Both the position numbers and the translations under genes were made by a program. A stretch of 64,000 nt of DNA from Devosia limi DSM 17137 (lineage in GTDB: Bacteria; Pseudomonadota; Alphaproteobacteria; Rhizobiales; Devosiaceae), in the NCBI RefSeq assembly GCF_900128975.1, contig NZ_FQVC01000002.1, forward strand, positions 248,001-312,000, in the 5' to 3' direction. Under the pieces are notes generated by a model. The model searched no databases. It had not been told where the DNA came from and worked only from the letters and a program-made list of their open reading frames with translations. Positions 1 to 53,355 of this stretch are shown here, in pieces. How positions within the stretch are numbered: position 1 is the stretch's first letter; every line of letters begins with the position of its first letter.

Positions 1-327
1 GATATCATCAAGGCGATCTGGCGCCTCTCGGCTTTCTACAAGCATGAGAGCTGCGGGCAGTGCACGCCGTGCCGCGAAGGCACCGGCTGGATGATGCGCG
101 TGATGGCTCGCATGGTCGAAGGCCGCGCCCAGAAGCGCGAAATCGACATGCTGTTCGAAGTGACCAAGCAGATCGAAGGCCACACCATCTGTGCACTCGG
201 CGACGCTGCTGCGTGGCCGATCCAGGGCCTGATCCGCAACTTCCGCCACGTCATCGAAGAGCGGATCGATCAATACACCTGGTCCTCGACCAGCGACGGC
301 GCCGTGCCGTCGATCGCGGCGGAGTAA
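1..327 (+). CDS. nuoF: NADH-quinone oxidoreductase subunit F, C-terminal part (5' end outside window)
   Basis: This is the last 108 codons of NuoF, the FMN- and NADH-binding subunit of the complex I peripheral arm. The reading frame is open from base 1. Near its start it carries the Cys cluster [12 protein letters not shown], which supplies three ligands of the N3 4Fe-4S centre, and the fourth is the Cys in the HTICALGD motif about 40 residues on. The tail (RHVIEERI) is typical of NuoF C-termini. nuoG starts 5 bp after the stop, so the two are co-transcribed. The N-terminal NADH and FMN sites lie upstream of the window. Confidence 0.96.
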
Positions 328-332
328 GGCCG

Positions 333-2435
333 ATGGCCAATATCAAAGTCGACGGCCAACTGGTCGAAGTCCCGGACTACTACACGCTGATGCAGGCGGC
401 CGAGGCCGCTGGCGCTGAAATCCCGCGCTTCTGCTATCATGAGCGCCTGTCGGTAGCCGGCAATTGCCGTATGTGCCTGGTTGAGGTGAAGGGCGGACCG
501 CCCAAGCCACAGGCCAGCTGTGCCATGTCGGTCAAGGATCTGCGGCCCGGTCCGAATGGCGAGCCGCCCGAAATGTTCACCAATTCGCCGATGGTCAAGA
601 AGGCCCGCGAAGGCGTGATGGAATTCCTGCTGATCAACCACCCGCTGGATTGCCCAATCTGCGATCAGGGCGGCGAGTGCGATTTGCAGGACCAGGCCAT
701 GGCTTATGGCGTGGACAAGAACCGCTTTGCCGAAAACAAGCGCGCCGTCGAGGACAAGTATATTGGCCCGCTGGTCAAGACCTCGATGAACCGCTGCATT
801 CACTGCACGCGGTGCGTTCGCTTCACCACGGAAGTGGCTGGCATTGCCGAGATGGGCCTGCTGGGTCGCGGCGAAGATGCCGAGATCACCACCTATCTCG
901 AAAAGGCGCTGACCAGCGAGTTGCAGGGCAACGTCATCGATCTCTGCCCGGTTGGTGCGCTGACCTCCAAGCCCTACGCATTCCATGCCCGTCCATGGGA
1001 ACTGGTGAAGACTGAATCCATCGACGTGATGGATGCTGTCGGCTCCAATATCCGCGTCGATAGCCGTGGCCGCGAAGTGATGCGCATCCTGCCGCGCATC
1101 AATGAGGCGATCAACGAAGAGTGGATTTCGGACAAGACCCGTTTTGTCTGGGATGGCCTCAAGAACCAGCGTCTTGATCGCCCCTATGTTCGCAAGGGCG
1201 GCAAGCTGCAGCAGACCGGCTGGGACGAGGCACTCGCCACCGTCGCTGCTCGCGTCAAGAAGGCCGGCAGCAAGGTCGGCGCCATCGCCGGTGACCTGGC
1301 TGCGGTTGAAGAAATGTTTGCGCTCAAGGCGCTGCTGGCCTCGATCGGCTCGGGCATGACGGATGTGCGTCCGGCTATGTCGGGGATCGATCCGTCCATG
1401 CCGCGCTCGGCCTATCTGTTCAATCCGACCATTGCGGGCATCGAGCAGGCCGACGCGATCCTCATCATTGGCACCAATCCGCGCAAGGAAGCGTCGCTCG
1501 TCAATGCGCGCATCCGCAAGACCTGGCGCGCCAAGGGCCTGCCGATCGCCGTAATCGGCGAGCGTGCCGACCTGACCTATGATTATGCCTATCTGGGCGA
1601 AGGCTTCGAGACGCTGGCCGATCTGGCCGCCGGCAAGGGCGAGTTCGCTGCAGTGCTGGCCAATGCCAAGAACCCGTTGATCATCGTCGGTGAAGGCGCC
1701 GTCTCGCATGCCACGTTGGGCAAGCAGGCTGGCCGCGACACCATCGCGCTGGCTGCCAAGCTGGCAACCGGTGCGAATGTCGCCGAGGGCTGGAACGGCT
1801 TTGCGCTGTTGCACAATGCAGCCAGCCGCGTCGGTGGCCTCGACATCGGCTTCGTGCCGCATGACGGTGGCGTCTGCTCGGCCGACCAGATTGCTCTGGC
1901 TGGCAAGGGCGAGCTCGACGTGCTGTTCCTGCTCGGTGCCGACGAATACGACATGTCGGCCATGGGCAAGGCATTCGTCGTCTATATCGGCAGCCATGGC
2001 GACAAGGGTGCACATCGCGCCGATGTCATCCTGCCGGCGGCGACCTACACCGAAAAGTCGGGCACCTATGTCAATACCGAGGGCCGCGTGCAGGTAACGA
2101 CCCGCGCCGTGTTCCCGCCGGGCGAGGCCAAGGAAGACTGGGCAATCATCCGCGCCCTGTCGGGTGCCATGGGCATGCCACTGCCGTTCAACTCGCTGAC
2201 GCAGCTGCGCGGCGCCATCTATGCCGAATTCCCGCACCTGGCTCGTATTGACCAGATCGCGGCGGGTTCGGTTGCCGATGTGGTCAAGCTGGCCAAGGCC
2301 GGCATCAAGACCAAGTCGGCTCCGTACGGTTCGGCTGTCGCCGAATTCTATCTCAGCAATCCGATTGCTCGCGCTTCGGCAACCATGGGCGAATGCGCCG
2401 CAACGGCCGCCGGTTTGCGGCAGGCAGCGGAGTAG
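333..2435 (+). CDS. nuoG: NADH-quinone oxidoreductase subunit G
   Basis: This 700-residue subunit of the complex I electron-input module carries the iron-sulfur chain after NuoE/F. The N-terminal ferredoxin domain shows 2Fe-2S ligands Cys34, Cys45, Cys48 and Cys63. It is followed by the His-Cys3 cluster (NHPLDCPICDQGGEC), the 4Fe-4S motif CIHCTRC and the distal Cys in DLCPVG. The rest is a molybdopterin-oxidoreductase-like fold that has lost its cofactor. The start ATG at 333 was chosen because MANIKVDG begins the ferredoxin domain; an open frame continues upstream to 60 but overlaps nuoF. The length is normal for alphaproteobacteria, shorter than the E. coli protein of about 900. Confidence 0.97.
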   Translation: MANIKVDGQLVEVPDYYTLMQAAEAAGAEIPRFCYHERLSVAGNCRMCLVEVKGGPPKPQASCAMSVKDLRPGPNGEPPEMFTNSPMVKKAREGVMEFLLINHPLDCPICDQGGECDLQDQAMAYGVDKNRFAENKRAVEDKYIGPLVKTSMNRCIHCTRCVRFTTEVAGIAEMGLLGRGEDAEITTYLEKALTSELQGNVIDLCPVGALTSKPYAFHARPWELVKTESIDVMDAVGSNIRVDSRGREVMRILPRINEAINEEWISDKTRFVWDGLKNQRLDRPYVRKGGKLQQTGWDEALATVAARVKKAGSKVGAIAGDLAAVEEMFALKALLASIGSGMTDVRPAMSGIDPSMPRSAYLFNPTIAGIEQADAILIIGTNPRKEASLVNARIRKTWRAKGLPIAVIGERADLTYDYAYLGEGFETLADLAAGKGEFAAVLANAKNPLIIVGEGAVSHATLGKQAGRDTIALAAKLATGANVAEGWNGFALLHNAASRVGGLDIGFVPHDGGVCSADQIALAGKGELDVLFLLGADEYDMSAMGKAFVVYIGSHGDKGAHRADVILPAATYTEKSGTYVNTEGRVQVTTRAVFPPGEAKEDWAIIRALSGAMGMPLPFNSLTQLRGAIYAEFPHLARIDQIAAGSVADVVKLAKAGIKTKSAPYGSAVAEFYLSNPIARASATMGECAATAAGLRQAAE

Positions 2436-2444
2436 GGGAGCACA

Positions 2445-3542
2445 ATGGACTTTATTCTCTCCGCGCTCGATTATCTGCTCGGTATCCCGATCCTGGGATG
2501 GGGCACGCATGTCGGCTTCATCTATGTAGCGCTGCTGCTGCTGGTTTGCCTGCTGGTGTTCACCGCATTCATCCTGCTGGCCGACCGCAAGATCTGGGCT
2601 GCCGTGCAGATCCGCCGTGGCCCCAACGTGGTGGGTCCGTTCGGCCTGCTGCAGAGCTTTGCCGACTTGCTGAAGTTCGCCTTCAAGGAAGTCGTCATCC
2701 CGGCCGGCGCCGACAAGATCCTGTTCATCGCAGCGCCGCTGATCACTGCCACGCTGGCGCTGTCGGCCTGGGCCGTGGTGCCGGTCAATGAGGGCTGGGT
2801 GATTGCCGACCTCAATGTGGGCATTCTCTATATCCTGGCGATTTCCTCGCTTGGCGTTTATGGCGTCATCATCGGCGGTTGGGCTTCCAACTCGAAGTAC
2901 CCATTCCTGGGTTCGCTCCGCTCGGCGGCGCAGATGGTGTCCTATGAAGTCTCCATCGGCTTGGTCATCATCACCGTGCTGCTTTGCGTGGGTTCGCTGA
3001 ACCTCAGCGATATCGTGCGGGCACAGTATGAGATGGGTCTGGCCCATATGATCGGCCTGCCGCAGTTGAGCTTCCTCAACTGGTTTTGGCTGCCGCTGTT
3101 CCCGATGTTCGTGGTGTTCTACGTCTCGGCGCTGGCTGAAACCAACCGCCCGCCATTCGATCTGGCGGAAGGCGAGTCTGAGCTGGTTGCCGGTTTCATG
3201 ACCGAGTATTCCTCGACCCCCTACATGCTGTTCATGTTGGGCGAGTACATCTCGATCCTGCTGATGTGCGCCATGACCACCATCCTGTTCCTGGGTGGCT
3301 GGGCCAGCCCGATCGACCTGCCGCCATTCACCTGGATCCCGGGCGTCATCTGGTTCGTGCTCAAGCTGAGCCTGGTGTTCTTCATGTTCGCCATGGCCAA
3401 GGCCATCGTCCCACGCTACCGCTACGACCAGCTGATGCGCATTGGCTGGAAAGTGTTCCTGCCGCTCTCGCTGGTCACCGTGATCGTTCTTGCGTTTATT
3501 CTCCAGCTCACTGGTTGGGGCTGGCACGGAGGGGTTGCCTGA
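2445..3542 (+). CDS. nuoH: NADH-quinone oxidoreductase subunit H
   Basis: This 365-residue integral membrane subunit joins the peripheral arm to the membrane arm and forms most of the quinone chamber. About eight hydrophobic helices are visible. The conserved [16 protein letters not shown] loop after the first helix and the [19 protein letters not shown] loop around residues 225-245 are quinone-site signatures of the NuoH/ND1 family. The stop overlaps the nuoI start by one base (TGATG), which implies translational coupling. Confidence 0.98.
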
Positions 3543-4030
3543 TGCGCGCCGTCCAGTTCGTCAATACGCTGCTGCTCAAGGAGTTCGTTTCGACGTTCTT
3601 CCTGGCGATGCGCTATTTCTTCGCGCCAAAGCCGACCATCAACTACCCCTTCGAAAAGGGCCATGTCAGCCCGCGCTTCCGCGGCGAACATGCGCTGCGC
3701 CGCTATCCCAATGGGGAAGAGCGTTGCATTGCCTGTAAGTTGTGCGAAGCGATCTGCCCGGCCCAGGCGATCACCATCGAAGCCGGTCCGCGCCAGAATG
3801 ACGGCACCCGCCGTACCGTGCGCTACGACATCGATATGGTGAAGTGCATCTATTGCGGCTTCTGTCAGGAAGCCTGTCCGGTAGATGCCATCGTCGAAGG
3901 CCCGAATTTCGAATTCGCCACTGAAACGCGCGAAGAGCTCTACTTCTCCAAGGAGAAGCTCCTCGCCAACGGTGATCGGTGGGAGCGTGAAATCGCTGCC
4001 AACATTTCCGCCGACTCCCCGTATCGCTGA
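3542..4030 (+). CDS. nuoI: NADH-quinone oxidoreductase subunit I
   Basis: This 162-residue, 8Fe ferredoxin-type subunit (TYKY) carries clusters N6a and N6b and passes electrons to N2 in NuoB. The two ligand sets are clear: Cys62, 65, 68, 72 ([11 protein letters not shown]) and Cys102, 105, 108, 112 ([11 protein letters not shown]), each followed by Pro. The N-terminal amphipathic helix contains the usual MRYFF motif. The ATG at 3542 overlaps the nuoH stop. The frame is open upstream to 3266, but that part is out-of-frame nuoH sequence. Confidence 0.98.
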
Positions 4031-4041
4031 GAGGGAAGAGC

Positions 4042-4650
4042 ATGACCCTTCCACTATTCTTCTTCTACATGTTCTCGGCGATTGCGATCGCCTCGGCCGT
4101 GATGGTCATTTCGGCCCGCAATCCGGTGCATGCCGTGCTGTTCCTGATCCTGGTGTTCGTCAACGCCGCGGGTCTGTTCATGCTGGCCGGCGCCGAGTTC
4201 CTGGCGTTGATCCTGGTCGTCGTTTATGTCGGCGCCGTGGCCGTGCTGTTCCTGTTCGTCGTGATGATGCTCGACGTGGACTTTGCCTCGCTGCGGCAGG
4301 GCTTCCTGCAATATGCGCCGATCGGCGTGGTTGTCGGGCTGGTGCTGCTGCTTGAACTGCTGCTGGTCGCCGGCAGCGTGATGGTGGCGCCGGAAACGGC
4401 CGGTGCTGCGGTGCTGCCGATCGACGGCGGCATCGAGAATACGCGGGCGCTGGGGCAGGTGCTCTATACCCGCTACGTGTTCCTGTTCCAGGGCGCCGGT
4501 GCGGTGCTGCTGGTGGCGATGATCGGGGCGATTGTCCTGACGCTGCGCCACAAGCCAAACGTCAAGCGTCAGAATCCAAACGTTCAGGTCGGCCGAAAGG
4601 TCTCCGAGACGCTGGAAGTCGTCAAAGTTAAAAGCGGTCAAGGGTTATAG
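4042..4650 (+). CDS. nuoJ: NADH-quinone oxidoreductase subunit J
   Basis: This 202-residue membrane subunit is homologous to ND6. It has five hydrophobic helices, including the conserved segment with [18 protein letters not shown], the pi-bulge helix of TM3 that moves during turnover. The last 40 residues are hydrophilic and Lys/Val-rich, as in other Rhizobiales NuoJ. A purine-rich RBS (gagggaagagc) lies just before the ATG. Confidence 0.97.
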
Positions 4651-4660
4651 GGGGTCAAAC

Positions 4661-4975
4661 ATGGGCTTGGGTATCGGGCTCGGTCACTACCTGACCGTAG
4701 CGGCAATTCTGTTCACGCTTGGCGTGTTCGGTATTTTCATCAACCGCAAGAATGTCATCGTCATCCTGATGTCGGTCGAATTGATCCTTCTCGCGGTCAA
4801 TCTGAACTTCGTCGCCTTCAGCGCCCAGCTGGGTGATTTGCAGGGGCAGATCTTTGCCCTGCTGATCCTCACCGTGGCTGCAGCAGAGGCTGCTATCGGG
4901 CTGGCGATCCTGGTTATTTTCTATCGCAACCGTGGTTCCATCGCGGTTGAAGACGTCAACATGATGAAGGGCTAA
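4661..4975 (+). CDS. nuoK: NADH-quinone oxidoreductase subunit K
   Basis: This 104-residue, three-helix antiporter-like subunit corresponds to ND4L. It includes the two membrane glutamates of the proton path: Glu in [11 protein letters not shown] (helix 2) and Glu in [11 protein letters not shown] (helix 3). The length is right for the family. It lies 10 bp after nuoJ and 11 bp before nuoL. Confidence 0.97.
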
Positions 4976-4986
4976 GAACCTCCGCT

Positions 4987-7029
4987 ATGATTCAAGCGAT
5001 TGTTTTCCTGCCCCTCATCGGCGCACTGGTCGCGGGGCTTCTGGGACGCACCATCGGGCATCGGACCAGTGAGTATCTCACCACTGGACTGCTGCTGATT
5101 GCGGCCGTGCTATCCTGGATAGTTTTCATTCCCGTCGCCTTTGGTGACGGGCTGGTTGGTGCGACGACCGAGGGTCATAGCGCTGTGATCCAGGTCGAGC
5201 TGATGCGCTGGATCCAGGTTGGTGACATGGACCTGCGCTGGGTGCTGCGGGTCGATACGCTGACCGCCATCATGCTGGTCGTGGTCAACACGGTCTCCAG
5301 CCTCGTGCACGTCTATTCGATCGGCTACATGGCCGAGGATCCGCATCGCAGCCGGTTCTTCGCCTATCTGTCGCTCTTCACTTTCGCCATGCTGATGCTG
5401 GTGACCGCCGACAACTTCCTGCAGATGTTCTTCGGCTGGGAAGGCGTGGGTCTGGCCTCGTATCTGCTGATCGGCTTCTGGTACACCAAGCCGTCGGCCA
5501 ATGCCGCGGCGATGAAGGCTTTCATCGTCAACCGCGTCGGCGACTTCGGCTTTGCTCTGGGTATTTTCGGCGCCTTCATGGTGCTGGGCCAGATCACGTT
5601 CGATGGCGCTTTCCATGCCGTCGAGGGTGCTGCCGAAGCGCGGATCAACTTCCTCGGCTTCGACCTGCATGCGATGACCGTGGTCTGCATGCTGCTGTTC
5701 ATGGGTGCCATGGGCAAGTCGGCACAGTTCCTGCTGCACACCTGGCTGCCGGACGCCATGGAGGGCCCGACCCCGGTGTCGGCGCTGATCCATGCCGCGA
5801 CCATGGTGACCGCAGGCGTATTCATGGTCGCGCGGCTGTCGCCGCTGTTCGAGACCTCCGAGTTCACGATGACCTTCGTTTTGATCATCGGCGCCATCAC
5901 CGCGTTCTTCGCGGCGACGGTTGGCCTGGTGCAGAACGACATCAAGCGTGTCATCGCCTATTCGACCTGTTCGCAGCTCGGCTACATGTTCGTGGCGCTG
6001 GGGGCAGGGGCCTATTCGGCCGGTGTGTTCCACCTGTTCACTCACGCCTTCTTCAAGGCGCTGTTGTTCCTGGGGGCCGGCGCGGTGATCCACGCCATGC
6101 ACCATGAGCAGGACATGCGGAACATGGGCGGGCTGCGCAAGAAGATCCCGATCACCTATGCGATGATGCTCATTGGCACGCTGGCACTGACGGGTGTTGG
6201 CATTCCAGGCTCCGAATGGCTGGGTTTTGCCGGGTTCTTCTCCAAGGATTCGATCATCGAGGCGGCTTATGCCGTTGGTGGCAATGCCGGCAGCTTCGCC
6301 TTCTGGATGCTGGTTATCGCGGCGCTGTTCACGAGCTTCTACTCGTGGCGCCTCATTCACCTGACCTTCCACGGTTCGCCCCGCCCGGCTGCTAATGATC
6401 ACCACGACGATCATGCGGCCCATGACGACCACCATGCCGATCATGGCAGTGCCTATGACCACGCCCACGAGGCGCCGCCGGTCATGCTGGTGCCGCTCTA
6501 TGTGCTGGCCTTTGGCGCTGTTGTGGCGGGTGCAGTGTTCTACGGCATGTTCTTCCACGATGTGGAACACATCGCGCACTTCTTCGCCGGCTCCGTCGTC
6601 GTTGATGCGGAGATCATCGATGCCGCTCACCACGTCCCGACATGGGTCAAGTGGAGTGCGACCATTGCGATGCTGTTCGGGTTTGTCACTGCGCTCTATA
6701 TGTACATCTTCGCGCCGGAGACGCCCAGGCGTCTGGCCGAGACCAATCGCGGCCTCTACCAGTTCCTGCTGAACAAGTGGTACTTCGACGAGCTCTACAA
6801 CACGATCTTCGTCAAGCCTGCCTTCTGGCTCGGCAATGCCTTCTGGAAGGGCTTCGATGACTGGCTGATTGACGGCAAGCTCACCGAAGGCCTCGGCCGC
6901 CGGGTGCAGAACGTCACCTCCTGGGTCACCAAGCTCCAGTCCGGCTATCTCTATCACTATGCGTTCGCCATGCTGATCGGCATTGCAGCGCTGTTGACCT
7001 GGGCCATCGCGGCCGGGGGACTGATCTGA
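4987..7029 (+). CDS. nuoL: NADH-quinone oxidoreductase subunit L
   Basis: This 680-residue distal proton-pumping subunit belongs to the Mrp-antiporter (ND5) family. The core around residues 130-330 has the conserved [18 protein letters not shown] helix, with the essential Glu, and the [20 protein letters not shown] loop. The C-terminus has the long lateral helix followed by an anchoring helix. Residues about 470-496 form an unusual His/Asp-rich loop with more than ten histidines, discussed in the findings. The stop overlaps the nuoM start by one base. Confidence 0.98.
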
Positions 7030-8537
7030 TGACCTTCGCCAATTCAATTCTGACCATCCTGACGTTCCTGCCCCTGCTGGGTGCGGCGATCCTCGTGTTC
7101 ACGCCCAAGACTTCGCTCAATGCGATCCGCTGGATCGCCTTTGCGGTCACCGTGGTCACCTTCGTGCTGTCGCTGGCCATGTGGCAGAGCTTCGATCCAT
7201 CCAATCCGGGCTTCCAGTTCGTCGTGAACATGCCCTGGATCGGCGACAGCATCGGCTATCGCGTCGGCGTCGACGGCATCTCGGTGCTGTTCGTGGTGCT
7301 CTCGGCACTGCTGATGCCGTTCTGCATCCTGGCCAGCTGGGAATCCATCGAGACGCGGCTCAAGGAATACATGATTGTCTTCCTGATCCTGGAGACGCTG
7401 ATGATCGGCGTGTTCACCACGCTCGATCTGGCGATGTTCTACGTGTTCTTCGAAGGCACGCTGCTGCCGATGTTCCTGATCATCGGTATCTGGGGCGGCA
7501 AGCGCCGCATCCAGGCCAGCTACAAGTTCTTCTTCTATACGTTCACCGGCTCCGTGCTGATGCTGCTGGCGATCATGGCGATGTACTGGAATGGCGGCAC
7601 CACCGACATTTCCAAGCTGCTGACCCATGACTTCCCCGAGAGCATGCAGACCTGGCTCTGGCTGGCATTCTTTGCCTCGCTTGCGGTCAAGATGCCGATG
7701 TGGCCGTTCCATCGCTGGCTGCCGGAAGCGCACGTTGAGGCGCCGACTGCCGGTTCGGTGATCCTGGCCGCGATCCTGCTCAAGCTCGGCGGCTATGGCT
7801 TCCTGCGCTTCTCGCTGCCAATGTTCCCTGACGCCTCGGCCCAGTTCGCCAACTTCGTCTTCCTGCTCTCGGTTGCTGCCATCATCATCACTTCGCTGGT
7901 GGCGCTGGTGCAGACCGATATCAAGAAGCTGATCGCCTATTCGTCGGTTGCCCATATGGGCTTCGTGACCATGGGTATCTTCGCGGGCAATGCCTTGGGC
8001 ATCCAGGGCGCCATGTTCCAGATGATCTCGCATGGTCTGGTGTCCGGTGCGCTCTTCCTTGCGGTTGGCGTCATCTATGACCGCATGCACACACGTGACA
8101 TCACCGCCTATGGTGGCTTGGTCGAGCGGATGCCGCGCTATGCCTTCGCGTTCATGGTTTTCACCATGGCCAATGTGGGTCTGCCGGGGACCTCGGGCTT
8201 CGTCGGTGAATTCCTGACGATGATCGGCGTGTTCCAGGTCAATACCCTGGTGGCGTTCGGTGCAGCGTTCGGCGTGATCTTCTCGGCCTGCTATGGGCTG
8301 TGGCTCTACCGGGCGGTGATCTTCGGTGCGCTGACCAAGGAAAGCCTCAAGGGCATTCTCGATCTCAGCCTGCGTGAGAAGGTCATTCTCTATCCGCTGA
8401 TCGTCATGATCATTTTCTTCGGCTTCTATCCGGCTCCAATCCTCGACACCACTGCGGCGTCGGTCGATGCGCTGGTCGCCCATTACTCTGCATCGGTTGG
8501 CCTGGCGCCGGTCGAAGCAGCAGTCGTAGCCCATTAG
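7029..8537 (+). CDS. nuoM: NADH-quinone oxidoreductase subunit M
   Basis: This 502-residue proton-pumping subunit belongs to the ND4 type. It shows about 14 hydrophobic helices, the [16 protein letters not shown] segment, the [21 protein letters not shown] helix with the key Glu, and the [20 protein letters not shown] loop. The start ATG overlaps the nuoL TGA (TGATG). The spacing to nuoN is 10 bp. Confidence 0.98.
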
Positions 8538-8547
8538 GAGGGGACCC

Positions 8548-9993
8548 GTGGTTTCCGACGTTACCGATTTCGCGAGCCTCGCGCCTGCCTATCCCGAGAT
8601 GCTCCTCGCCATCGGGGCCATCGTGCTGCTGCTCGTGGGCGTGGTGATCAACAAGGAGCGCTCGACGCTCGTGTCGATGCTGGCCATCGGCTTGCTGGTG
8701 GTGGTTGCCGCCCTGGTGCTGCTGCAGCCCGCCGATGGCGTGCTGTTCAATGGCGTGTTCATTGCCGACGGCTTCGCGCGCTACATGAAGGTGCTGGTGC
8801 TGGGCGGCTCGGCCTTTGCTTTGATGCTGGCGCTGCCGCATGCCGAAGAAAACGGCACACACAAGTTCGAATATTCCATCCTTGTCCTGCTGGCGACGCT
8901 CGGCATGATGACGATGGTTTCGGCCAATGACCTGATGAGCCTCTATATCGGCATCGAGTTGCAGTCGCTGGCGCTCTATGTGCTGGCTGCAATCAAGCGC
9001 GATGATCCGCGGGCGACGGAAGCGGGCCTCAAGTATTTCGTGCTGGGTGCGCTATCATCGGGCATGCTGCTCTATGGCGCTTCGCTGATCTACGGCTTTA
9101 CCGGCCATACCAATCTGCAGCAGATCGTTATTGCCATTGCCAATGATGGCCGCTCGGTCGGTCTGGTATTCGGCGTGGTGTTCCTGCTGGCCGGCGTGGC
9201 GTTCAAGATCTCGGCCGTGCCGTTCCACATGTGGACGCCCGACGTCTATGAAGGTGCGCCGACCCCGGTCACCGCCTTCTTTGCCACCGCACCCAAGGTC
9301 GCGGCGATGGCGCTGCTGGTTCGGCTGGTTATCGATACTTTCGAGCCGATCAGCCATGACTGGCAGCAGATCATCGTCTTCCTGTCGTTGGCATCGATGG
9401 TGCTGGCAGCGTTTGCCGCTATCGGCCAGCGCTCCATCAAGCGACTGATTGCCTATTCCTCGATCGGCCATGTGGGCTTTGCGCTGGTTGGTCTGTCGTC
9501 GGGCACCCAGGGGGGCGTCGAGGGTGTGGCGATCTATATGGCGATCTATATCACCATGACTGTCGGCCTGTTTGCCTGCCTGCTGTCGCTGCGCAACAGC
9601 AATGGCTATGTCGAGAATATCGATGACCTGGCAGGGCTGGCCAAGGCGCGGCCATTCGTGGCGGCCATCATGGCCATCCTGATGTTCTCGCTGATCGGCA
9701 TGCCGCCGCTGGCTGGCTTCTTTGCCAAGTGGCACGTGTTCCTCGCCGCTATCGAGGCCCAGCTGTTCGTGCTGGCCGTTGTTGGCGTGCTGGCTTCGGC
9801 CGTCAGCGCCTTCTACTACCTGCGCGTCGTCAAGGTGATGTATTTCGACGAGCCGACCAGCGAGTTCGCTGCAGTGCCGAACGAACTCAATGTCATCATG
9901 GCGGTCAGCGGCTTCCTGCTTGTCACCTATTACTTCACCGTCGGCGGTTCGCTGGCGAGTGCGGCACGCGTTGCTGCAGGAAGCCTGTTCTAG
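8548..9993 (+). CDS. nuoN: NADH-quinone oxidoreductase subunit N
   Basis: This 481-residue antiporter-like subunit (ND2) is the last complex I gene in the operon. Family motifs include [19 protein letters not shown] (residues about 130-150), the [20 protein letters not shown] loop and the [16 protein letters not shown] helix. The start is GTG at 8548, supported by an AGGAGG-like RBS about 7 bp upstream. birA begins immediately after the stop. Confidence 0.97.
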
Positions 9994-33202: not shown

Positions 33203-33376
33203 GCTGTGGTCTCCAGTCCCGCGCAAGCTAACGGCCAATGGCTGGTGCGGCAACCACTGGCGCGGAAACCGGCATCGATGGTGGCGCGGATTTCCATCGA
33301 TAACTGGCCGTCGCAGCCTTCAAGGCCGGTGGTGGGGGCCCCCGTTCTTCCATGGCGGGCCCACCTTTCACCGGGG
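33203..33376. other. Upstream region of xthA
   Basis: About 170 bp lie between the xthA start and repeat copy 1. Presumably the xthA promoter is here; I see no further gene or distinct motif. Confidence 0.4.
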
Positions 33377-33453
33377 CATTCCCGCGCAGGCGGGAATCCA
33401 TTCTTGAATGGGAGCCGTGGAGGGACGAATGGATTCCCGCCTGCGCGGGAATG
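33377..33453. repeat. Nested palindromic repeat, copy 1
   Basis: Two 26-base arms (33377-33402 and 33428-33453) are inverted copies of each other around a 25-base loop. Each arm is itself palindromic: ATTCCCGC and GCGGGAAT pair around GCAG. The same arms occur at 47776 and 53279 with unrelated loops, so this is a dispersed REP/MITE-like element. It lies upstream of xthA and downstream of erpA. Confidence 0.85.
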
Positions 33454-33528
33454 ACTCCGCGGGCGGACTGGGCGCACTAGGACGAAACGCTAATTCCGAT
33501 GGGCACCAACAGCGCCCCCAAAAAAATC

Positions 33529-47775: not shown

Positions 47776-47854
47776 GTCATTCCCGCGCAGGCGGGAATCC
47801 ATTCTTCTTCGAGCAGGTCAGCCCAGAATGGATTCCCGCCTGCGCGGGAATGAC
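47776..47854. repeat. Nested palindromic repeat, copy 2
   Basis: The arms are the same as in copy 1 (ATTCCCGC-GCAG-GCGGGAAT inside each), with a different loop. Here the element is flanked by a further inverted pair, CCACCGGGTCATT at 47769-47781 and AATGACCCGGTGG at 47868-47880. It lies between converging nlpD and the DUF815 ATPase gene. Confidence 0.88.
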
Positions 47855-47919: not shown

Positions 47920-48801
47920 CTAATTCACCGCCTTGCCCATCTCACCCGCCAGCGTCCGCACCAGCTGGATCGCCACGCGGCCCGAGCGGGCGCCACGCGT
48001 CACCGACCATTCGATCGCCCGCGCCCGCAGCGTTTCCTCGTCAAGGCCCAGCCCGTAGTGATCGGCATAGGCCGTCACCATGGCCAGGAATGTCGGCTGG
48101 TCGCAATTGTGGAACCCAAGCCACAGCCCGAACCGGTCGGACAGGGAGACTTTTTCTTCAATGGCCTCGCCGGGATTGATGGCGGTCGCGCGTTCATTGT
48201 CGATCATGTCGCGCGGCATCAGGTGGCGCCGGTTGGAGGTGGCGTAGAACAGGACGTTGTCCGGCCGCCCTTCAAGCCCGCCATCGAGAATGGTCTTGAG
48301 CGATTTGTAGCTGCCCTCGTCCTTGTCGAAGCTCAGGTCGTCGCAAAAGACGATGAAGCGGGCCGATTCATTGCCGATCAGGCGCATCAGGGTTGGCAGG
48401 CTGGTCAGGTCGTCGCGGGCGATTTCGATCAGCACCAGCCGCTCGAACCCGTCATCGCCACGTTCGGCGATATCGGCGTGGATGGCTTTGACCAGTGAGC
48501 TCTTGCCCATGCCCCGCGCGCCCCAGAGCAGCGCATTGTTGGCGCCGTGGCCCCGGGCGAATTGTTCGGTGTTGCGCAAAAGGATGTCCTGCACCGCATC
48601 GATTCCCTTGAGCATCGATAATGGCACGCGGCTGACCTTGGGCACCGGCATCAACATACCGGCATCGGCATCCCAGTGATAAGCATTGGCGTCACCGAGT
48701 CTTGGGCCGGCGGTTTGCGGGGCAGGGGCGATATCGGCCAGCGAGCGGGCAATCTGCTCGAGTGAAGCGGCGATATCCGCCAGATAATCCTTGGTCTTCA
48801 A
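47920..48801 (-). CDS. DUF815 family AAA-type ATPase
   Basis: This protein of about 293 residues is a P-loop ATPase of the DUF815 family, common in alphaproteobacteria and of unknown function. Walker A is GARGMGKSS, Walker B is FIVFCDDLSFD, and an arginine-rich TSNRRHLMPRDM follows. The N-terminus has a short helix (DYLADIAASLEQIARSLADI). The start is taken at TTG 48801, seven bases after GAGGA. The open frame continues to an ATG at 48870, giving 316 residues, but that part resembles no family member. Confidence 0.85.
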   Translation of the reverse strand: MKTKDYLADIAASLEQIARSLADIAPAPQTAGPRLGDANAYHWDADAGMLMPVPKVSRVPLSMLKGIDAVQDILLRNTEQFARGHGANNALLWGARGMGKSSLVKAIHADIAERGDDGFERLVLIEIARDDLTSLPTLMRLIGNESARFIVFCDDLSFDKDEGSYKSLKTILDGGLEGRPDNVLFYATSNRRHLMPRDMIDNERATAINPGEAIEEKVSLSDRFGLWLGFHNCDQPTFLAMVTAYADHYGLGLDEETLRARAIEWSVTRGARSGRVAIQLVRTLAGEMGKAVN

Positions 48802-49007
48802 TGGGTCGTCCTCGTCTGATCCGCGGCAATTTGTGACCCCCGGATTGCCTTTGCAATCGTCGGGGGGCAAATGTATAGTCCGGCCGATTTTGCACGGGGC
48901 GCAAGTGCATAAAGCCCCATATGCGTCCAGTCAGTGTCGCCAGCGACATTTGGTCGGGTCGTAAAACCTCTCCAAACCCAAGAAAAAAACGATAAGGAGC
49001 TCGCCTC

Positions 49008-49361
49008 ATGTTTGTAACGCCCGCTTATGCACAGGCCGCCGGCGCACCCGCCGGTGGTGGCATCACCGATATCTTCATCCAGCTGATGCCGATCCTGCTG
49101 CTGGTGGTCATTTTCTGGCTGCTGATCTTCCGTCCGCAGCAGAAGCGCATGAAGGCACAGCAGGCCATGCTGTCGGCCATCCGTCGTGGCGACACCGTGG
49201 TCACCACCGGCGGCATCGTCGGCAAGGTCACCAAGGCCGTTGATGGCGAAGACCTCGAAGTCGAAATCGCTCCGACCGTGAAGGTCAAGCTGGTGCGCGG
49301 CATGATCGCCGACGTCCGCTCCAAGGCTGAGCCGGTCAACGACAACAAGCCTGCCGCCTGA
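49008..49361 (+). CDS. yajC: Sec translocase accessory subunit YajC
   Basis: This 117-residue protein has one N-terminal helix (residues about 22-45, LMPILLLVVIFWLLIFRPQQKRMK) and a basic cytoplasmic domain beginning RRGDTVVTTGGIVGKV. It belongs to the SecDF-YajC complex that supports preprotein export. AAGGAG lies just upstream. A terminator hairpin separates it from secDF. Confidence 0.95.
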   Translation: MFVTPAYAQAAGAPAGGGITDIFIQLMPILLLVVIFWLLIFRPQQKRMKAQQAMLSAIRRGDTVVTTGGIVGKVTKAVDGEDLEVEIAPTVKVKLVRGMIADVRSKAEPVNDNKPAA

Positions 49362-49422: not shown

Positions 49423-51972
49423 ATGCAGTTCTCCCCGCTCCGCACCGCCATCATCGCCTTTGTCGCCTTGCTGGGAGTGCTTTTCGCAGTACCCAGCTTT
49501 CTGCCGCAGAATGTGCGAGAGGCCTGGCCCAGTTTCCTGCCGCAGCAGACTATCGTGCTCGGACTTGATCTGCAGGGCGGGTCCCATCTGCTGCTGCAGG
49601 TCAATGAGGATGGTATTGTCACCGAGCGGTTGCAGAGCCTGCGCCGCGATGTTCGCAATCTTCTGGCGAACCAGAATGGCATCGGCAATCTCATCACCAC
49701 TGATGCGGAAAATGCCACGATCACCATCGAGTTGACCGATCCGACGCAGAAGGAGGCGGCCCGTACCGCCATCCAGACGCTGCAGACCACGGTCAGCAAT
49801 TCGATGTTTGCGGTTGGCGGCGTCAACGAGCTGTCGTTCGGCGAAACACCCGACGGCAAGCTGACCATTACGCTGACGCCCGAGGGCATTACCGAGCGCA
49901 TGTCGGCACTGGTCGCCCAGTCGATCGAAGTGATCCGCAAGCGCGTCGACGAACTCGGCACCACCGAGCCTTCGATCCAGCGCCAGGGCACCAGTCGCGT
50001 GCTGGTCCAGGTCCCGGGCTTCGGCGATTCCGAGCGTCTCAAGGACATCATTTCACGCACCGCGCGCCTGACCTTCCACATGGTCTATCCCGGCATGTCT
50101 GCTGCCCAGGCGGAAGCCCAGGGCCTGCCAGCCGGCACCATGATCCTGCCTAGCCAGGATGGTGGCAAGGAACTCATCTATGAAGACATCGCCCTGGGTG
50201 GCGAGTCGCTGGTCGATGCGCAGCCGTCGTTTGACTCGCAGCGCAACATGCCGGTTGTCAGCTTCCGCTTCGATACGCGTGGCGCCGTCACTTTCGGCCA
50301 GATCACCTCGGCCAATGTCGGCCAGCGCTTTGCTATCGTCCTCGATAACCAGGTGATCACCGCGCCGCAGATCCAGCAGCCGATCACCGGCGGCACCGGT
50401 CAGATCAGTGGCAGCTTCACTACCCAGACGGCAAACGACCTGGCCGTGCTGCTGCGGGCGGGTGCTCTGCCGGCCTCGCTCGACGTCATCGAAGAACGCA
50501 CCGTCGATGCCAGCCTTGGCGCTGACTCGATCCAGCATGGCCTGACCGCCGGTATCGTTGCCTCGGTGCTGGTCGTCTCCTTCATGGTCATCGCCTATGG
50601 GCTGTTCGGTGTCTTCGCCAATATCTCGCTGGTCCTGAACATCGTCCTGATCTTTGGTGCGCTCTCCATGCTGGGGGCCACGCTGACCTTGCCGGGTATT
50701 GCCGGTATCGTTCTGACCATCGGTATGGCCGTTGACGCCAACGTGCTGATCTACGAGCGCATACGAGAGGAGCAGAAGGCGGGTAAAACACCGTTGCAGG
50801 CGATCAATGCCGGCTTCGATCGGGCGTGGGGCACCATTATCGACTCCCACCTGACCCAGCTCATTGCTGCCGTCGTGCTCTATTTCCTCGGTTCGGGTCC
50901 GGTGCAGGGCTTTGCCGTTACCCTCGGCCTCGGCATCCTGACCTCGCTGTTCACGTCCTACACGGTCACGCTCTACTTCGTGGGCATGTGGTACCGCTGG
51001 CGCCGGCCGAAGACCCTCAAGATCCAGCATTTCCGCTTCATTCCGGACGGGACCAAAATCCCGTTCATGAAAATCTCGCGCTATGTGATCGCCTTCTCGA
51101 TCATCATGTCGGTGCTGTCGATCGGCTCCGCCGTGTTCCGCGGCTTCAATCTCGGTATCGACTTTGTCGGTGGCACCGCCATCGTCATCCAGCACGAAGA
51201 CGGCCCCGCCGATGTCGGCAAGGTCCGCGAGCTGCTTGACGGGCTGAACCTGGGCGAAGTGCAGGTGCAGGGCTTCGGTACGCCCGAAGACGTGCTGGTC
51301 CGTGTGCAGGCTCAGGAGGGCGGGCAGGACGCCGACCAGGTTGCCGTGGCCAAGGTGCGCGAGGCGCTGGCGACGGAGAACTACACGGTTCGAAGTACCG
51401 AAGCGGTCAGTGGCACGGTTTCGGGAGAGCTTGCCTGGAAGGGCGCCATTGCGGTGATCATCTCGCTGGTGGCCATCCTGATCTACATCTGGTTCCGCTT
51501 CGAGTGGCAATTCGCCTTGGCGGCGGTGACGACGACGACCCACGACGTGATCATGACCATCGGTCTGTTCTCGATAACGGGGCTGGAGTTCAACCTGACG
51601 TCCATTGCGGCGGTGCTGACTCTCGTCGGTCTGTCCCTGAACGAAACCGTGGTGGTCTCCGACCGAATCCGCGAAAACCTGCGCAAGCATCGCAAGATGC
51701 CGTTGCCGGACCTGATCGATCTGTCGATCAACCAGACCATCGTCCGCACCACGATCACGCAGTTCACCGTGTTCCTGGCGCTGATCCCGCTGGTGCTGTT
51801 CGGCGGCGAAGTGATCCGCAGCTTTACCATCGCCATGACCTTCGGGTGTCTGGTGGGCATGTACTCGTCGATCATCGTCAACGGGCCGATCCTGATCAAT
51901 TTCGGCCTGAAGTCGAAGGCCGACGAGCCAAAGGATGCCCGGCCGAAATCGGCTGATGGTGCATCCGTCTGA
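49423..51972 (+). CDS. secDF: Protein translocase subunit SecDF (fused)
   Basis: This 849-residue RND-type protein combines SecD (residues about 1-520) and SecF (about 540-849) in one chain, giving twelve helices. It uses the proton gradient to pull preproteins through SecYEG. SecD motifs are DLQGGSHLLLQV near the start and GMAVDANVLIYERIREE. SecF motifs are GIDFVGGTA and LNETVVVSDRIRENLR. Fused SecDF is usual in Rhizobiales. It overlaps the next gene by 17 bp. Confidence 0.97.
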   Translation: MQFSPLRTAIIAFVALLGVLFAVPSFLPQNVREAWPSFLPQQTIVLGLDLQGGSHLLLQVNEDGIVTERLQSLRRDVRNLLANQNGIGNLITTDAENATITIELTDPTQKEAARTAIQTLQTTVSNSMFAVGGVNELSFGETPDGKLTITLTPEGITERMSALVAQSIEVIRKRVDELGTTEPSIQRQGTSRVLVQVPGFGDSERLKDIISRTARLTFHMVYPGMSAAQAEAQGLPAGTMILPSQDGGKELIYEDIALGGESLVDAQPSFDSQRNMPVVSFRFDTRGAVTFGQITSANVGQRFAIVLDNQVITAPQIQQPITGGTGQISGSFTTQTANDLAVLLRAGALPASLDVIEERTVDASLGADSIQHGLTAGIVASVLVVSFMVIAYGLFGVFANISLVLNIVLIFGALSMLGATLTLPGIAGIVLTIGMAVDANVLIYERIREEQKAGKTPLQAINAGFDRAWGTIIDSHLTQLIAAVVLYFLGSGPVQGFAVTLGLGILTSLFTSYTVTLYFVGMWYRWRRPKTLKIQHFRFIPDGTKIPFMKISRYVIAFSIIMSVLSIGSAVFRGFNLGIDFVGGTAIVIQHEDGPADVGKVRELLDGLNLGEVQVQGFGTPEDVLVRVQAQEGGQDADQVAVAKVREALATENYTVRSTEAVSGTVSGELAWKGAIAVIISLVAILIYIWFRFEWQFALAAVTTTTHDVIMTIGLFSITGLEFNLTSIAAVLTLVGLSLNETVVVSDRIRENLRKHRKMPLPDLIDLSINQTIVRTTITQFTVFLALIPLVLFGGEVIRSFTIAMTFGCLVGMYSSIIVNGPILINFGLKSKADEPKDARPKSADGASV

Positions 51973-52363
51973 GTTGACCGTGAACGAAACCGGTCACTAT
52001 CCCTATCAGGCCGCCATTGACGTTTACGGCAATGGCGGCTTCCGCTTTGCCGAAATGTCGCATCGCGGCTCGCTGCTCTGCCTGCCCACTGGTATGCATG
52101 GCTGGGACGTGACGCAGTCGTCCGAGATCACCCTGGAAACGCTGGCGCCGGTCCTGGCCTGCGCCGACGACATCGATGTGCTGCTGATCGGGCAGGGCAT
52201 GGATATCGCTTTTGTCAGCCCGATCATTCGCGATGCCTTCCGGGCGCGCGGCGTCATCGTCGAGGCCATTGCCACGGGCGGTGCGGTGCGAACCTATAAT
52301 GTGCTGTTTGGCGAGCAGCGGGCCGTGGCTGCGGCACTGATTGCTGTCGACAGGGTGCGCTGA
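51956..52363 (+). CDS. Mth938-like (DUF498/NDUFAF3-type) protein
   Basis: This 135-residue single-domain protein of the Mth938/DUF498 family includes mitochondrial NDUFAF3, a complex I assembly factor. Visible signatures are IDVYGNGGFRFAEMSHRGSL, the DIDVLLIGQG loop and IVEAIATGGAVRTYNVL. The start is ATG 51956; the GTG at 51959 is an alternative. It overlaps both the secDF end (17 bp) and the following gene (1 bp), so it is surely in that operon. The bacterial function is not established. Confidence 0.88.
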   Translation: MVHPSELTVNETGHYPYQAAIDVYGNGGFRFAEMSHRGSLLCLPTGMHGWDVTQSSEITLETLAPVLACADDIDVLLIGQGMDIAFVSPIIRDAFRARGVIVEAIATGGAVRTYNVLFGEQRAVAAALIAVDRVR

Positions 52364-53208
52364 TGGCTGCCGAGAGTTTCGTCCACGCCGCCGATGCGCT
52401 GCGGACCAGTGACCGTGACCGCTATCTGTCGACCCTGGTGCTGACCGGGGCGCATCGCGATGCCGTGGTGGCGCTCTATGCCTTCAACGCCGATGTCGCC
52501 GCCATTCGCGCCCGCGTCTCCGATCCGACACCGGGTGAAATCCGCCTGCAATGGTGGAACGACGCGCTGGAGGGGCAGGGCCATGGTGCAGTGCGCCAGA
52601 ACCCCATCGCCGATGCGCTGCTCGATACCATCGCCACCTACAGCATTCCCAAGGGCACGCTGCAGCGCCTGCTCGGCGCGCGGCGCTTCGATCTTTATGA
52701 CGATCCCATGCCCGATCTCGAAAGCTTCGAGGGCTATGCCGGCGAGACCGCCTCGACGCTGTATCAGCTGGCGGCGATGATCCTCAACGATGGCGAACTG
52801 GTCGAAATCGGTGACGCCGCCGGCCATCTCGGCGTCGCGCACGCCATGATCGGGCATCTGCGCGCCTTCGGCCACACCGCCTCCCAGGGCCGGATCATGC
52901 TGCCCTGGTCGGTCTTTGCCGCCAATGGCGTGCGCGAGCGCGACATCTTCTCGGGTCAGGCGAGCGAAGGCGTGGTCGAAGCCCTGGGCCAGATCAGCGA
53001 CCTGGCGTCCGAGCATCTCGCCAAGGCCGAAACTGCCATCATCGCCTTGCCCGGCAAGCTGCGCCCAGCCTTCGCGCCCATCGCCATGCTCAAGGCCCAG
53101 CACGCACTGTGGCAGACTGACCAGTCGACGCCTTTCGCCGCCGCCCCCGACGACGCCGACTGGCGCAAGATCACGCGTCTGGCCTGGTGGACCTTCCGCA
53201 ACCGGTAA
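52363..53208 (+). CDS. Squalene/phytoene synthase family protein (NDUFAF6-like)
   Basis: This 281-residue isoprenoid-synthase fold protein shows the family cores ALYAFNADVAAIRARVSDPTPGEIRLQWWNDAL and YAGETASTLYQLAA. The paired Asp-rich motifs (DxxxD) of true squalene/phytoene synthases appear weakened: RVSDPTPGE in the first, no clear second. No other carotenoid or hopanoid genes are nearby. It resembles the mitochondrial complex I assembly factor NDUFAF6, which is also a non-catalytic member. Its ATG overlaps the upstream stop by one base. Confidence 0.83.
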   Translation: MAAESFVHAADALRTSDRDRYLSTLVLTGAHRDAVVALYAFNADVAAIRARVSDPTPGEIRLQWWNDALEGQGHGAVRQNPIADALLDTIATYSIPKGTLQRLLGARRFDLYDDPMPDLESFEGYAGETASTLYQLAAMILNDGELVEIGDAAGHLGVAHAMIGHLRAFGHTASQGRIMLPWSVFAANGVRERDIFSGQASEGVVEALGQISDLASEHLAKAETAIIALPGKLRPAFAPIAMLKAQHALWQTDQSTPFAAAPDDADWRKITRLAWWTFRNR

Positions 53209-53278: not shown

Positions 53279-53355
53279 GTCATTCCCGCGCAGGCGGGAA
53301 TCCATTCTTGGGAGCCACAAAGGGAAAAATGGATTCCCGCCTGCGCGGGAATGAC
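53279..53355. repeat. Nested palindromic repeat, copy 3
   Basis: The arms are those of copies 1 and 2, here separated by a 21-base loop. The flanks CCACCACGGAGTCATT on the left and AATGACCCGGTGGG on the right again resemble the outer pair of copy 2. It lies between converging genes. Confidence 0.88.

Follow-up and report, generated by a model that had tools for sequence, protein, structure and literature searches.

A gene pair next to secDF in Devosia limi: NDUFAF3- and NDUFAF6-type proteins that may serve the complex I of Alphaproteobacteria

What do an NDUFAF3-type and an NDUFAF6-type gene do side by side behind secDF in a bacterium, and is complex I their client? The question is raised by a locus of Devosia limi DSM 17137 within the window analysed here, i.e. 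a stretch of 64,000 nucleotides (contig NZ_FQVC01000002.1, positions 248,001 to 312,000, forward strand). In the following, AF3 denotes the PF04430 (NDUFAF3-type) gene and AF6 the PF00494 (NDUFAF6-type) gene; G with a number denotes a genome, L with a number a mapped locus, and f19 the family of genome G227, which we take to be Acetobacteraceae. A first-pass annotation of the window had named the two gene families, had described overlaps of 1 bp between AF3 and AF6 and of 17 bp between secDF and AF3, and had proposed that the pair assists Nuo assembly together with SecDF. Families and reading frames were found as described. The AF3/AF6 overlap has the form TGATG, and the overlap with secDF is 17 bp with ATG 51956 as the AF3 start and 38 bp with the in-frame ATG at 51935. 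Judged from its sequence, AF6 has the fold of a squalene/phytoene synthase but lacks the chemistry. We propose that AF3 and AF6 are the alphaproteobacterial forms of NDUFAF3 and NDUFAF6 and that AF6 serves the native complex I and not the form with a fused NuoCD, a reading to which we assign a probability of about 0.6.

The clearest contrast bearing on this reading comes from family f19, which contains two kinds of complex I. NuoD was found in 53 of its 60 genomes. In the native form NuoC and NuoD are separate and NuoD is 58-69% identical to that of the window genome (12 loci read), whereas in the fused form NuoC is joined to NuoD and the identity is 38-43% (9 loci read). In the remaining native genomes the assignment relied on the NuoD frame, whose length leaves no room for a fused NuoC; the fragment in G548 cannot be typed. 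Complete clusters and clusters with fused C and D are called Nuo14 and Nuo13, respectively, in PMC12361115, and nuo13 and nuo14 operons in Acetobacteraceae are tabulated in PMC10715153. At a completeness of at least 98%, AF6 was present in 27/27 native genomes, in 0/7 with NuoCD only and in 0/3 without nuo. At a completeness of at least 95% the counts were 35/35, 0/7 and 1/4, and over all 60 genomes 42/45, 1/8 and, for genomes without NuoD, 4/7. The eight mismatches all occurred in assemblies that are 82-95% complete. The contrast gave a Fisher value of 3e-9. Motif reading covered the 30 best loci, 19 further genomes, G057 and G227, and part of the second matches of AF6-negative genomes. Nine positives were accepted on score alone (G533, G535, G536, G538, G549, G552, G570, G571 and G578), three of them (G535, G549 and G570) at a completeness of at least 98%. 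G570 has both forms of nuo and retains AF6, as seen from score and neighbourhood; it was counted as native.

Over the class as a whole, we searched 241 alphaproteobacterial genomes drawn at a completeness of at least 95%. AF3 was called by PF04430 at E <= 0.001, and AF6 at E <= 1e-15 by a profile derived from alphaproteobacterial AF6 genes. PF04430 was found in 142 genomes, NuoD in 217 and the AF6 profile in 173, of which 152 remained after removal of 21 catalytic matches. Motifs were read for 47 weaker or marginal genomes (22 + 25), score being the sole criterion for most stronger AF6 matches; G049, G192 and G113 were counted as positive on weak scores (about 59-66 bits). NuoD was missing in 24 genomes. 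NuoH as a second marker restored G211, which was moved to the nuo-positive group; its match in G167 was weak and partial, and G269 was kept nuo-negative. Eight genomes with weak NuoD were not typed (G075, G092, G094, G115, G182, G196, G251 and G262), with AF3 in none of them and AF6 only in G094. AF3 was present in 141/218 nuo-positive vs 1/23 nuo-negative genomes and AF6 in 151/218 vs 1/23, corresponding to raw Fisher values of 1e-8 and 8e-10. The sole nuo-negative carrier, G269, has both genes; its assembly consists of 130 contigs and is 96% complete, and its congener G125 has nuo. Both genes occurred in 125 of the 241 genomes, neither in 72, AF6 only in 27 and AF3 only in 17. Counted by family, either gene was seen in 0/12 wholly nuo-negative families, compared with 67/115 for AF3 and 76/115 for AF6. 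The class-wide co-occurrence agrees with the assembly idea but does not carry it. The raw association was rejected as proof, given the small size of nuo-negative genomes and the weak result once size is controlled for. In Escherichia coli, taken as a control, NuoD is present and PF04430 absent, so that AF3 is not a general requirement of complex I.

A number of observations weigh against the proposed reading. Within f19, G552 (94% complete) is AF6-positive with only NuoCD found, AF6 occurs in 4/7 genomes without NuoD (fragmented assemblies, 82-95%), and 3/45 native genomes lack it (87-93% complete). A tree of the marker HpnD groups the fused and nuo-less genomes largely together, such that the native label amounts to one change (support 78/89); G558 and the native G559 lie in an open fork with others, and the bootstrap is not settled. 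Since the tree gives about one change, the Fisher value of the f19 contrast is not a count of independent events, and treating the contrast as ten such events was rejected. Searches of the whole genome gave no AF3 in four f19 members (G057, G156, G227 and G528), of which G057, G156 and G528 have nuoD; in G567 the gene stands beside yajC. AF3 thus does not follow the pattern of native nuo in f19. The class table pools both types of nuo, and in a logistic model with log genome size the p-value for nuo was 0.13 (AF3) and 0.11 (AF6). The association with nuo predicted by the first-pass annotation stood insofar as the pair is not common without nuo, being carried by one of the 23 nuo-negative genomes, but it weakened once size was modelled. 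Among nuo-positive genomes 67/218 lack AF6, 77/218 lack AF3 and 94/218 lack at least one of them, so neither gene is strictly needed. For AF6, a link to the native enzyme was supported in the single family f19 (27/27 vs 0/10 without it at the highest completeness). A literature search for a bacterial experiment on these factors found none.

According to the first rival explanation, genome size and shared ancestry produce the co-occurrence with nuo as a by-product, and the pair does an unrelated job, e.g. lipid or isoprenoid binding, in a gene order that is simply conserved. The size-modelled p-values and the nearly single event in f19 favour it, and the neighbourhood also keeps genes without a known tie to complex I, namely DUF815 (45/60 loci) and trmFO (35/60). 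Of the 23 nuo-negative genomes 22 are not larger than 2.1 Mb. Among genomes up to this size AF3 occurred in 0/22 nuo-negative vs 14/62 nuo-positive ones (p 0.016), with identical counts for AF6. One or both genes were present in 0/22 vs 21/62 (p 0.001), which speaks against the by-product explanation, and the two together in 0/22 vs 7/62 (p 0.18). Genome sizes in f19 overlap between the native (2.5-6.4 Mb) and the NuoCD group (1.9-3.7 Mb), and PMC10910544 lists the human homologues among the assembly factors of complex I. Altogether we consider a mere by-product rather unlikely.

The neighbourhood was characterized in 60 mapped loci, each from an AF3-positive genome of a different family; in all, 67 families had an AF3 match. 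AF3 lies immediately behind secF in 55/60 of these representatives (exceptions L053, L085, L090, L091 and L097). An AF6-profile match follows downstream on the same strand within 7 kb in 44/60 loci, a count that includes weak or partial matches (L077 and L091); one of the two matches in L075 is another homologue. The usual order is M23 peptidase, DUF815 (opposite strand), yajC, secD, secF, AF3, a variable gene, AF6 and trmFO (opposite strand). Over the 60 loci yajC was found in 59, a SecD/F match in 59, and the M23 peptidase in 43. Only a minority of the class loci (at most 8/60) show AF3 and AF6 in the close contact seen in the window, while their open frames overlap in 8/8 loci read from the window's own family. 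Among the best 80 of 589 named AF6 loci, which are mostly from Hyphomicrobiales and thus close to the window, AF3 was found on the same strand in the flank in 80/80 and secDF in 76/80. The nearest of the named AF6 loci belong to Devosia. Outside the class no secDF was present within 5 kb of the PF04430 gene in 7/8 loci read. Because AF3 follows secF in 55/60 families and an AF6-profile match lies downstream in 44/60, we judge the neighbourhood to be old: the locus yajC-secD-secF-AF3-AF6-trmFO looks ancestral in Alphaproteobacteria. Its recurrence across the class also led us to discount a chance arrangement of yajC, secDF, AF3 and AF6 in the window.

Further features of these loci were noted. 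The gene between AF3 (or yajC) and AF6 differs by lineage. In L041, L042, L053, L072 and L092 it encodes 177-225 aa and matches the C-terminal part of Urate_ox_N (PF06181). In L045 and L055 it is an iron/manganese superoxide dismutase according to Pfam, recognised by eye also in L402-L404, and in L074 a Pfam scan identified an amine oxidase. Pfam scans of the AF3-AF6 interval gave no match for some loci, and several of the scanned frames were wrong ones. The eighth locus read outside Alphaproteobacteria (L209, genome G315) has a PF04430 gene behind yajC-secD-secF, with no AF6-profile match in the 10 kb read.

The adjacency to secF gives rise to the second rival explanation, according to which AF3 and AF6 are accessory factors of the SecDF-YajC translocon that act in general membrane-protein insertion, with complex I as one client. 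Apart from the position of AF3 in 55/60 families, it is favoured by 14 AF6-containing genomes without AF3, 11 of which still have AF6 close to secDF (12 have it close to trmFO). In humans NDUFAF3 is listed as a putative Oxa1 interactor in PMC7314023 (citing Saada et al. 2009). On the other side, AF3 and AF6 follow yajC in L053 and L403 with no secDF within the stretch read, the rest of those genomes being outside the search. A secDF match was seen in the flanks of 0/37 f19 AF6 loci, a count that covers flanks of only 1.5 kb in 30 of the 37 and no further part of these genomes; yajC lies upstream in 5/7 of those with longer flanks. A general insertion factor, moreover, need not follow native nuo as AF6 does in f19, and mitochondria retain NDUFAF3 and NDUFAF6 without SecDF. 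We regard this explanation as unlikely. A partnership of SecDF with AF3 and AF6 is possible, with gene order as its sole basis, and the part of the first-pass proposal that had the pair act together with SecDF could not be upheld beyond that.

The AF6 protein itself scored 169.7 bits against PF00494 (SQS_PSY, cut-off 26) and stayed far below the cut-offs of the catalytic NCBIfam models, i.e. HpnD (105.5 against 278.6), HpnC (42.9 against 250.45) and CrtB. Neither a DDxxD nor an RDxxED motif is present in the window AF6: where synthases have DDxxD it reads approximately AFN-x-E-IA..R, and about LRA instead of LRDxxED in the second region. The first aspartate motif (the DD pair) is missing in 47/47 same-strand AF6 rows that cover the region but kept in 10/12 opposite-strand HpnC/HpnD-like rows, the other two being one fragment and L078 without the motif. 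Weaker AF6-profile matches elsewhere likewise split by motif into AF6-like and catalytic ones, and 12/12 fetched matches from outside Alphaproteobacteria, picked among the higher-scoring, retain both motifs. An alignment of the window AF6 with 25 named relatives has 17 invariant columns, many of them around G58-W65 and F109-D114, and the protein is therefore under strong constraint. The AlphaFold2 model has a pLDDT of 95.2, and its best match in the Protein Data Bank (PDB) is 8is6 (CrtM-like) with a TM score of 0.86. A profile search of the PDB for an NDUFAF6 structure returned synthases and two prenyl transferases only. Although fold and Pfam family would fit an active isoprenoid synthase of the hopanoid or carotenoid pathway, such a role is very improbable and was rejected given the missing aspartate motifs, the low scores against HpnC, HpnD and CrtB, and the presence of motif-bearing HpnC/HpnD-like genes in some of the same loci.

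Such HpnC/HpnD-like genes lie on the opposite strand within the same locus in L049, L054, L057, L074, L078, L082, L084, L087 and L094. AF6 may have arisen by local duplication.

AF3 scored 99.2 bits against PF04430 (cut-off 33) and had no match in NCBIfam. Its closest solved relatives are 2fvt (E 3e-33) and 2fi9 (E 6e-31), compared with an E-value of 0.35 for 2ab1 (C11orf67), which we take to be AAMDC; this comparison was made among PDB relatives only.

To return to the preferred reading, the observations are most simply explained if AF6, and with less certainty AF3, act in assembling the complex I native to the class and were inherited by mitochondria. The native form with separate NuoC and NuoD is presumably the one closest to the mitochondrial enzyme. 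AF6 would be a dead squalene/phytoene synthase whose helical fold could serve as a peripheral-membrane chaperone, dedicated to the complex I with separate NuoC and NuoD rather than to the fused NuoCD form. Its client might be one of the membrane subunits in the Q/proximal-membrane module, with NuoH (ND1) as the likeliest candidate, a role suggested by work on the human protein. AF3 may help to keep the Q module (NuoB/C/D/I) at the membrane, and SecDF would be a conserved neighbour, perhaps co-expressed. Chaperone work on human NDUFAF6 is reported in PMC8007014 (citing McKenzie 2011). The same paper provides a eukaryotic parallel, as Saccharomyces cerevisiae and Candida glabrata have neither complex I nor an NDUFAF6 orthologue. 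In a wider version, to which we give about even odds, NDUFAF6 and probably NDUFAF3 arose in Alphaproteobacteria for the mitochondria-like complex I of this class with its 14 separate subunits and not for complex I generally, such that replacement by NuoCD made AF6 useless and led to its loss. If this is true, the human disease genes were inherited directly from a bacterial assembly pathway specific to one enzyme. An orthologue in a bacterial class that is tractable in the laboratory, combined with the contrast between native and fused forms, would allow a direct genetic test, and the contrast would help to tell which feature of the native enzyme requires the factor.

The features of the window that bear on the question are collected in Table 1. 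The first-pass annotation had pointed to nuo in the same stretch as the pair. This holds for the 3' part of the operon, where nuoG, nuoH, nuoJ and three antiporter-type subunits (nuoL, nuoM and nuoN) were identified, while nuoC and nuoD lie 2-4 kb upstream of the window. Since the pair and nuo are about 40 kb apart, they belong to separate operons.

Table 1. Coordinates of the AF3-AF6 locus and of nuo in the 64,000-nucleotide window.
Feature	Position	Strand	Evidence
yajC, translocase accessory subunit	49008-49361	+	PF02699 E 5e-26; TIGR00739 above cut-off
secDF, fused SecD-SecF translocase subunit	49423-51972	+	PF02355, PF22599, PF21760; secD and secF NCBIfam equivalog domains above cut-off
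AF3, NDUFAF3-type, PF04430/DUF498, predicted Mth938-like fold	51956-52363	+	PF04430 E 1.7e-28; solved relatives 2fvt, 2fi9
AF6, NDUFAF6-type, squalene/phytoene-synthase fold without either aspartate-rich motif	52363-53208	+	PF00494 E 1.3e-49; motif reading; AlphaFold2 model
nuo operon, 3' part (nuoG to nuoN), proposed client complex	60-9993	+	PF00384, PF00146, PF00499, PF00361

Upstream of yajC the window has a DUF815 ATPase (PF05673) at 47920-48870 on the minus strand, the family seen in most of the class loci. A paired inverted repeat (TCATTCCCGC...GCGGGAATCC facing its own reverse complement) occurs in three copies, at 53280-53354, 47777-47853 and 33376-33454; its pattern gave 12 matches over both window strands vs 0.14 expected. 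The copy at 53280-53354, directly behind AF6, has an RNA fold of -75 kcal/mol (z -10.8) and may terminate the transcript.

How does the pair compare with known systems? The abstract of Saada et al. 2009 reportedly links NDUFAF3 by gene conservation to bacterial SecF/SecD/YajC and to C8ORF38 (NDUFAF6), and we therefore grade the locus finding as already known. Like NDUFAF3 (C3orf60), which we presume to be a member of the same family, AF3 carries PF04430; for NDUFAF4, the human partner of NDUFAF3, we know of no bacterial homologue. The tracking of complex I type by AF6 may be new. No publication tying NDUFAF6 orthologues to complex I type was found among the matches listed, papers that word the fused form other than as nuo13/nuo14 being outside the scope of the search, and the term NDUFAF does not occur in PMC12361115 and PMC10715153, which deal with bacterial complex I types. 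Like NDUFAF6 (C8orf38), AF6 combines a squalene/phytoene-synthase fold with the loss of both aspartate motifs, and its presence may likewise go with complex I. According to PMC8007014 (citing Lemire 2017), these motifs are missing in NDU1, NDUFAF6 and orthologues, and prokaryotic orthologues are placed in the NDUFAF6 cluster. Unlike NDUFAF6, AF6 is bacterial and part of an operon-like unit with AF3 and secDF; the likeness is one of family and motifs. Synthases of the HpnC/HpnD/CrtB type share fold and Pfam family with AF6, and HpnC/HpnD-like genes sometimes occupy the same locus, but they keep the aspartate motifs in most rows and AF6 does not.

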